Shown here piece by piece: positions 1,263-1,606 of a stretch of 64,000 bases of DNA. The position numbers and the translations under genes were made by a program. Position 1 is the first letter of the stretch, and the number at the start of each line of letters is the position of its first letter. Origin of the DNA: Neoasaia chiangmaiensis (GTDB taxonomy: Bacteria; Pseudomonadota; Alphaproteobacteria; Acetobacterales; Acetobacteraceae); contig NZ_CP014691.1 in NCBI RefSeq assembly GCF_002005465.1, forward strand, positions 1,364,001 through 1,428,000, written 5' to 3'. The notes under the pieces were generated by a model. The model was given only the letters and a program-made list of their open reading frames with translations. It made no database searches and had not been told where the DNA came from.

Positions 1263-1565
1263 GTCCGCGTAGCTCAGCAGGATAGAGCACAGGATTCCTA
1301 AGGCACGAATTGGGCGTCATGAAGGAAACTTCATGGTGGATCCACTCAAATTCGGGGAAAGCTGACGGTCGAAGACCCTGCCGATCCCGAGCCAAGCCCG
1401 ATCCGTCGGGAAGGTGTAGAGACTGAACGGGTGGCGCCTGTCGACCGCAAGCCGGTCCATGGCGAAGAGACAGTCCAGACCACGAACGCATCGCACGATG
1501 CGGCGGCGAAAGCCGAAGTGGTATGAATCCTGGGGCCGTGGGTTCGAATCCCGCCGCGGACACCA
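1263..1565 (+). tRNA. tRNA-Arg(CCU), interrupted by a group I intron
   Basis: The 5' exon (1263-1299) carries the acceptor strand GTCCGCG, a D-arm GCTC...GAGC and the anticodon strand CAGGA followed by TTCCT. The 3' exon (1526-1565) resumes with AA, TCCTG, a short variable loop, the T-arm GTGGG-TTCGAAT-CCCGC, the acceptor strand CGCGGAC, discriminator A and an encoded CCA. Joined, the loop is TTCCTAA with anticodon CCU at positions 34-36, so the tRNA reads AGG. All stems are perfectly paired. The interruption is exactly after the third anticodon base, the site known for the Agrobacterium tRNA-Arg(CCU) group I intron. Standard tRNA finders may miss this gene. Confidence 0.95.
1300..1525 (+). 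ncRNA. group I self-splicing intron (Azoarcus-like, IC3 type) in tRNA-Arg
   Basis: The 226-nt insert follows U1299 and ends in G1525, as group I introns do. P1 can be drawn as CCTAA (1297-1301) with TTGGG (1310-1314), giving the obligatory U-G wobble at the 5' splice site (U1299-G1312) and an internal guide GGG pairing with the anticodon CCU. P2 is CATGAAG-GAAA-CTTCATG (1318-1335) with a GNRA loop. Core blocks resemble the Azoarcus tRNA-Ile intron from memory: TCAAATTCGGGGAAA (1346-1360), GAGCCAAGC (1389-1397), GGTGTAGAGACT (1413-1424), and AGACAGTCC (1468-1476) whose AGTC pairs with GACT in P7. P9 CGGC-GAAA-GCCG (1504-1515) again has a GAAA loop. It contains no endonuclease gene. Self-splicing is inferred from these features. 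Confidence 0.93.
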
Positions 1566-1606
1566 CAAGTCGCCGACTCGGCGCATGACACGTCGTAGAT
1601 ACGAAA

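Follow-up and report, generated by a model that had tools for sequence, protein, structure and literature searches.

A group I intron in the tRNA-Arg(CCU) gene of Neoasaia chiangmaiensis and its relatives in other bacterial tRNA genes

An interrupted tRNA-Arg(CCU) gene

The genome of Neoasaia chiangmaiensis (GCF_002005465.1) carries a tRNA-Arg(CCU) gene that is very probably in working order and is interrupted by a group I intron, which contains no open reading frame and would splice itself out of the transcript. The gene lies in the stretch of 64,000 nucleotides analysed here (NZ_CP014691.1, 1,364,001–1,428,000; "the window"), whose numbering is used throughout. Joined by script, the two exon halves (Table 1) gave a 77-nt standard cloverleaf that ARAGORN identified as tRNA-Arg(cct), and ARAGORN in intron mode read the genomic stretch (locus L001) as tRNA-Arg (cct) with a 226-nt intron. 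The insert begins directly behind U1299, which is U36 of the tRNA, and its terminal base is G1525. Default ARAGORN found no tRNA gene in the window, and no ORF of at least 80 aa lies within the intron. An earlier note on this DNA had claimed, from the letters alone, a compact ORF-less insert of 226 nt in the anticodon loop of tRNA-Arg(CCU), preceded by U and ending in G, in a gene that a plain tRNA search would miss; all of these claims held. Three open frames run antisense over the tRNA gene (1102–1680, 1317–1610 and 1346–1591, minus strand) and were taken as artefacts of the tRNA sequence.

Table 1 Features of the interrupted tRNA-Arg(CCU) gene in window numbering, with the plasmid-borne tRNA-Leu(UAA) gene in the last row.
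Feature	Position	Strand	Basis
5' exon, tRNA-Arg(CCU), to U36	1263–1299	+	sequence, ARAGORN intron mode, joined-exon fold
Group I intron, 226 nt, terminal G	1300–1525	+	full-length RF00028 match, ARAGORN intron mode, covariation
3' exon, tRNA-Arg(CCU), CCA encoded	1526–1565	+	sequence, joined-exon fold
Acceptor-stem position 5 (G), partner C1557	1267	+	pair separating most intron-bearing from intronless genes
P1, exon 1293–1299 / internal guide 1312–1318, U1299.G1312 at splice site	1293–1318	+	sequence
P2 hairpin, GAAA loop	1319–1334	+	sequence
P3, 1342–1347 / 1429–1434, encloses P4 to P6	1342–1434	+	both partners changed in 3 of 6 pairs
P4, 1352–1357 / 1385–1390, UCGGGG/UCCCGA	1352–1390	+	invariant in 22 introns
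P7, guanosine-site helix, 1421–1424 / 1472–1475, crosses P3	1421–1475	+	paired in 22 of 22, invariant
P8, 1435–1438 / 1461–1464	1435–1464	+	both partners changed in 3 of 4 pairs
GAAA hairpin, P9 region	1504–1515	+	sequence
tRNA-Leu(UAA) with intron, plasmid	L063:3933–4231 (NC_004464.2)

Group I identity, core structure and covariation

The group I model RF00028 matched positions 1287–1490 (+) over model positions 1–253 of 253 (36.9 bits, E 5.9e-8, 441 bases searched), and this was its only match at E ≤ 1 in the whole 3,407,860-base (3.41-Mb) genome. The group I assignment of the earlier note was thus borne out by this match and by a covarying core. Its proposed covariance-score check gave a divided answer: the match is full length, and its score falls under the 50-bit gathering score, at which the intron goes unreported. 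The same was true of all 20 loci examined that hold the intron's subfamily (L012 with masked letters), so that the RF00028 cut-off generally misses related copies. The minimum free energy of the fold was ordinary (z −1.13); with fold energy alone being unremarkable, the evidence for a ribozyme is the covariance match together with covariation.

The insert shows the features that mark a group I intron, namely a U.G pair at the 5' splice site in P1 and a terminal G, both read from the sequence, and a conserved core from P3 to P8 including P7, indicated by the RF00028 match and covariation; insertion after U36 is that of a tRNA-Arg(CCU) intron. P1 consists of U.G, C-G, C-G, one U/C mismatch, U.G, A-U and G-C. 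P1 with its U.G, the P2 GAAA hairpin and the P9-region GAAA hairpin, as drawn in the earlier note, are all present.

For the core (P3–P7), 22 introns were aligned, comprising the window copy, 10 Arg copies of relatives and 11 introns from other tRNAs; L012 (Ns), L064 and L065 (near-copies of L063), L068, L077 and L078 were omitted. The consensus structure was named by hand, with P7 entered as a pseudoknot. Pairing was found in 99.5% of 594 cells, and 9 of the 27 core pairs were changed on both sides (36 cells). None of 500 shuffles matched the paired percentage, the pairs changed or the cells changed, two of 500 matched the further pair types, and slid control structures were 31–50% paired. 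P4, P6 and P7 were invariant in the 22 introns; P3, P5, P6a and P8 covaried.

These features are consistent with the usual group I course. The transcript would fold its own ribozyme, the internal guide would form P1 with the last bases of the 5' exon, and an external guanosine bound at P7 would cut behind U1299. The freed exon would then attack behind G1525, yielding an uninterrupted tRNA for the usual maturation. We infer both this reaction and its efficiency in the cell.

Guide preference was compared with the exons of all sites in two ways. In a best-run version (116 of 120 introns), a guide's own exon was the best partner for Thr and not for Arg, Leu or Lys(CUU). With anchored guides (115 of 120), which start with GGGC in 68 of 72 Arg copies, Arg guides scored 2.92 of 4 on their own exon vs 2.93–3.01 on other sites, Leu guides 3.54 (29 of 35 perfect) vs 2.63–3.29 and Thr guides 3.2 vs 1.0–1.8, while Lys(CUU) guides scored equally on their own exon and on that of Arg. 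Both versions discriminate weakly because G-rich guides pair with much. The lack of preference for the Arg exon, the mismatch within P1 and the sub-cut-off Rfam score speak against this account, as does the weak tree support for the Arg group given below.

Two other explanations of the locus were weighed against these data. Two tRNA-like halves might flank unrelated DNA by chance, which the ordinary fold energy would favour; we give this practically no credence, given the RF00028 E value and the covariation of the core, and it was already refuted by full-length intron-bearing genes in 11 of 59 other genomes. Alternatively, the insert might be a decaying intron in a tRNA pseudogene, formerly spliced, with AGG now read by tRNA-Arg(UCU). 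A tRNA-Arg(UCU) gene is present in the genome, such a tRNA could read AGG by wobble, and splicing of the present intron is itself a deduction. Against decay, the window copy has standard pairs at all 23 nested positions of the core, P4 and P7 are invariant, and the window exons have the commonest sequence among intron-bearing Acetobacteraceae genes (39 of 92). We consider decay very improbable.

A second intact tRNA-Arg(CCU) gene, which the earlier note had named as grounds for giving up its reading, was not found. No other CCU gene occurred among the genome's 46 tRNA matches above the Rfam cut-off, as read by ARAGORN (L050 via the overlapping L049), and an intronless CCU pattern allowing up to three mismatches was absent from the whole genome. 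The list of 46 may be incomplete, since it holds neither tRNA-Ile(GAU) nor tRNA-Ala(UGC). Both usually lie in rRNA operons, and the gap may lie with the search instead of the genome.

Distribution and phylogeny of the subfamily

A covariance model built for the subfamily (R1) found introns, at whatever tRNA site, in 141 of the 299 Acetobacteraceae genomes, in 50 of 385 genomes of the class (with 5 Acetobacteraceae among the 50) and in 41 of 398 genomes of the phylum, 13 of which belong to other classes; every sample includes the own genome. The earlier note had spoken of an intron "in this lineage", which is too narrow given its spread through the family and into other alphaproteobacteria. A scan of named genomes for the Arg-site pattern returned 84 stretches, of which the 80 listed included Gluconacetobacter, Gluconobacter, Acetobacter, Asaia, Azospirillum, Agrobacterium, Rhizobium, Aureimonas and Rhodobacter. 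Intronless tRNA-Arg(CCU) genes were recognised by pattern in 84 of the 299 family genomes. In an empty-site comparison in two genera, the flanks of intron-bearing and intronless genes aligned only over the tRNA and short pieces. One intronless gene (L026) has the intron-type acceptor GTCCGCG and is a candidate for precise intron loss.

By tRNA site, 120 distinct cores, including three near-identical plasmid copies, were divided into Arg(CCU) (72), Leu(UAA) (35), Thr(GGU) (5), Lys(CUU) (3), Lys(UUU) (1) and odd class II Leu genes (4). Twenty of the 120 labels were assigned by eye and the others by script, from the position of the intron ends inside ARAGORN gene bounds. In a quick tree of the 120 cores, 8 changes accounted for the site labels, against a minimum of 6 and a mean of 42.7 after shuffling; none of 200 shuffles came as low. 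A single group (SH-aLRT 95) held 70 of the 72 Arg rows, including the window. With label changes near the minimum, the introns follow the tRNA site even in genomes with two of them; branches of the subfamily are largely tied to single tRNA sites, sorting by site rather than by genome. Inheritance within a site would be vertical.

An enlarged set of named and further loci comprised 189 rows, from which the four longest were dropped for a careful tree of 185. The quick tree of all 189 rows, which has long branches, speaks against a single Arg group, since just 6 of the 129 Arg introns fell into an unmixed group that contains the window. In the careful tree, 121 of the 129 Arg introns, those of the window and Agrobacterium among them, formed an unmixed group (SH-aLRT 93; bootstrap 18, unsettled). 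Kinship with the Agrobacterium site, as suggested in the earlier note, is thus weakly favoured by the careful tree and not recovered in the quick tree of 189 rows. Eight Arg introns fell outside the main group, namely five of family f70, L014 (f8), and L009 and L177 (Acetobacteraceae). Separate origins of these introns were considered and not upheld, in that a single clade of all 129 (p-AU 0.222), or of 123 (p-AU 0.473), was not rejected.

Subfamily introns were also observed in tRNA-Thr(GGU) genes (L015/L070, L072, L146, L151 and L176) and tRNA-Lys genes (L017/L078, L206, L208 and L209); to our knowledge, neither site has been described in print. Four loci (L016/L071, L152, L170 and L172) hold class II Leu-like tRNA genes with subfamily introns and odd anticodon loops. 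The idea that these are allo-tRNAs was dropped, as a search of the open-licence literature returned no paper on point.

A plasmid-borne tRNA-Leu(UAA) gene with a subfamily intron

As a query, the intron body matched 1272 plasmid records, with 77–78% identity in the 20 matches listed. The three plasmid loci that were fetched (L063, L064 and L065) each contain an intact tRNA-Leu(UAA) gene with a subfamily intron. The plasmid region as query matched 1317 of 72,556 plasmid records, 1244 of them at a coverage of 80% or more; among 5426 complete E. coli genomes it matched 645, of which 618 reached that coverage. Next to the region, an ATPase gene and aac(3)-IId were present in each of the four records in which this flank was inspected. 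The plasmid gene table covers no RNA genes. Neither a tRNA nor an intron is annotated at the region in the two RefSeq records opened, and no feature lies under the match in the 8 E. coli rows listed. A donor search of the 385 class genomes gave a best match of 86%, over the tRNA gene alone. The source of the plasmid tRNA-Leu seems to be alphaproteobacterial, and the intron-bearing gene is a hint of such an origin for the DNA beside aac(3)-IId on resistance plasmids.

Linkage of the intron with acceptor pair 5-69

The exons of 92 intron-bearing tRNA-Arg(CCU) genes of the family (named Acetobacteraceae included) were compared with those of 53 intronless genes. The largest difference lay in acceptor pair 5-69 (total variation 0.96 and 0.98), followed by positions 74 (0.50), 4 (0.29) and 17 (0.18). 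Each of the 129 distinct intron-bearing genes that matched the search expression had a purine at position 5 (G 114, A 15), while the 82 intronless genes from 30 families (84 loci minus 2 repeats) had C in 70, T in 10 and G in 2. The expression caught 149 of 162 Arg-site loci. Among the 13 missed, G5 was found in L012 and L222 (same gene), L107, and L130 and L264 (same gene); in L243 the position-5 side is cut off and the matching C69 is present; and seven intron-bearing genes carry C5 (five of family f70, L014 of f8, and L321 from another class). In each of the five genera for which the expression retrieved genes with and without the intron, the intron and the acceptor pair switched jointly. 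Where one form of the tRNA gene occurs the intron tends to occur too, and where that form is missing the intron tends to be missing.

One explanation is co-adaptation, in which the intron would constrain a distant part of its host tRNA and intron-bearing genes would have moved to purine 5. The commonest intronless acceptor, GUCCCCG, contains UCCCCG, which is complementary to the invariant P4 strand CGGGGA. A 5' acceptor strand of this intronless type (pyrimidine 5) would trap the P4 strand in the growing transcript before the 3' acceptor strand is made. If true, intron and exon would have become co-adapted at a site away from the splice junctions, and the joint switch of intron and acceptor pair would have its explanation. 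The rival explanation is that purine 5 is a neutral mark of the one tRNA allele that the intron entered.

The trap was modelled by thermodynamic folding of nascent RNA, in prefixes ending shortly past the first P4 strand. Predicted mean mispairing in the prefixes was 0.607 with C5, 0.020 with G5, 0.015 with A5 and 0.122 with U5, and with C5 it exceeded 0.5 in 43 of 67 genes, with G5 in 1 of 67; for the window precursor it was 0.47 with C5 vs 0.00. Once the second P4 strand was made, P4 was predicted at 0.430 with C5 and 0.659 with G5, being lower with C5 in 42 of 67 genes and higher in 7. Misfolding at equilibrium was discarded as a cause, P4 being 0.600 with either G5 or C5 in full-length precursors (67 of 70 genes analysable).

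The model results divide between the two explanations. Averaged over 68 genes, predicted mispairing was 0.001–0.021 for four intron-type acceptors vs 0.060–0.679 for five intronless types, which argues against a neutral mark, as do the use of both G and A as the purine and the joint switch in five of five genera. Among genes that naturally carry C5, the predicted trap was 0.13 or less in four of the five f70 genes and 0.00 in L014, again as co-adaptation would have it, and 0.66 in the fifth f70 gene; the P4 strand of L321 was unrecognised. In favour of a neutral mark, the 129 intron-bearing genes are non-independent, most grouping together in the careful tree, seven intron-bearing genes carry C5, and the position-5 swap leaves P4 unchanged at equilibrium. 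Furthermore, the intronless acceptor GCGCCCG (12 of 82 genes) pairs with P4 no better than the intron-type GTCCGCG (−7.0 and −7.2 kcal/mol), its trap being just 0.060, and pairing is weaker still for intronless GCGCTCG (−4.0) and GCGGTCG (−1.3). Because none of these three intronless acceptors outdoes the intron type in pairing with P4, we weighed co-adaptation down and the neutral mark up. Common descent from a single tRNA allele goes far to explain the linkage and is the likelier account, which we regard as reasonably probable; co-adaptation, as modelled, is a tentative proposal that we doubt.

Comparison with known systems

The intron itself is a textbook kind in a new place. No report of it in acetic acid bacteria was found among open-licence papers, mostly searched by title, which is weak evidence of novelty. 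An effect of the acceptor stem on intron folding appeared in none of the titles listed from the open-licence literature, where neither the joint switch of the acceptor pair nor the plasmid-borne tRNA-Leu was met; the linkage and the plasmid gene may be new. The linkage could matter as a cheap test of whether a self-splicing intron can shape its host gene at positions remote from its splice junctions. Genes of this kind escape both default ARAGORN and the Rfam cut-off, and genomes may consequently seem to be without Arg(CCU) or Leu(UAA).

Hausner et al. 2014 (PMC3984707) name the Azoarcus tRNA-Ile(CAU) group I intron and place bacterial group I introns mostly in tRNA and rRNA genes. R1 found a core in a tRNA of another class with a CAU anticodon (L318), which ARAGORN called Met and which we read as Ile. 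Interrupted tRNA-Arg(TCT) genes in a published account are likewise missing from annotation; the intron type is not determined there, and the tRNA here is Arg(CCU).

The introns of Azoarcus tRNA-Ile(CAU) and Agrobacterium tRNA-Arg(CCU) have long been known. That of Azoarcus is a small tRNA intron with GNRA loops, as is the window intron, which from its likeness to that of Azoarcus may be of subgroup IC3; the tRNA and the guide sequence differ. The cyanobacterial tRNA-Leu(UAA) intron, also a known system, shares its kind of host tRNA with the subfamily's Leu(UAA) introns, which are inserted after U34. Another close counterpart is the Agrobacterium intron, reportedly described by Reinhold-Hurek and Shub in 1992. 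It interrupts the same tRNA, presumably at the same insertion point; L219 and L224 bear the Arg-site pattern, and Agrobacterium stands on the window's side of the careful tree. Its sequence has diverged, and the eight Rhizobiaceae copies have A5 where the window has G5.
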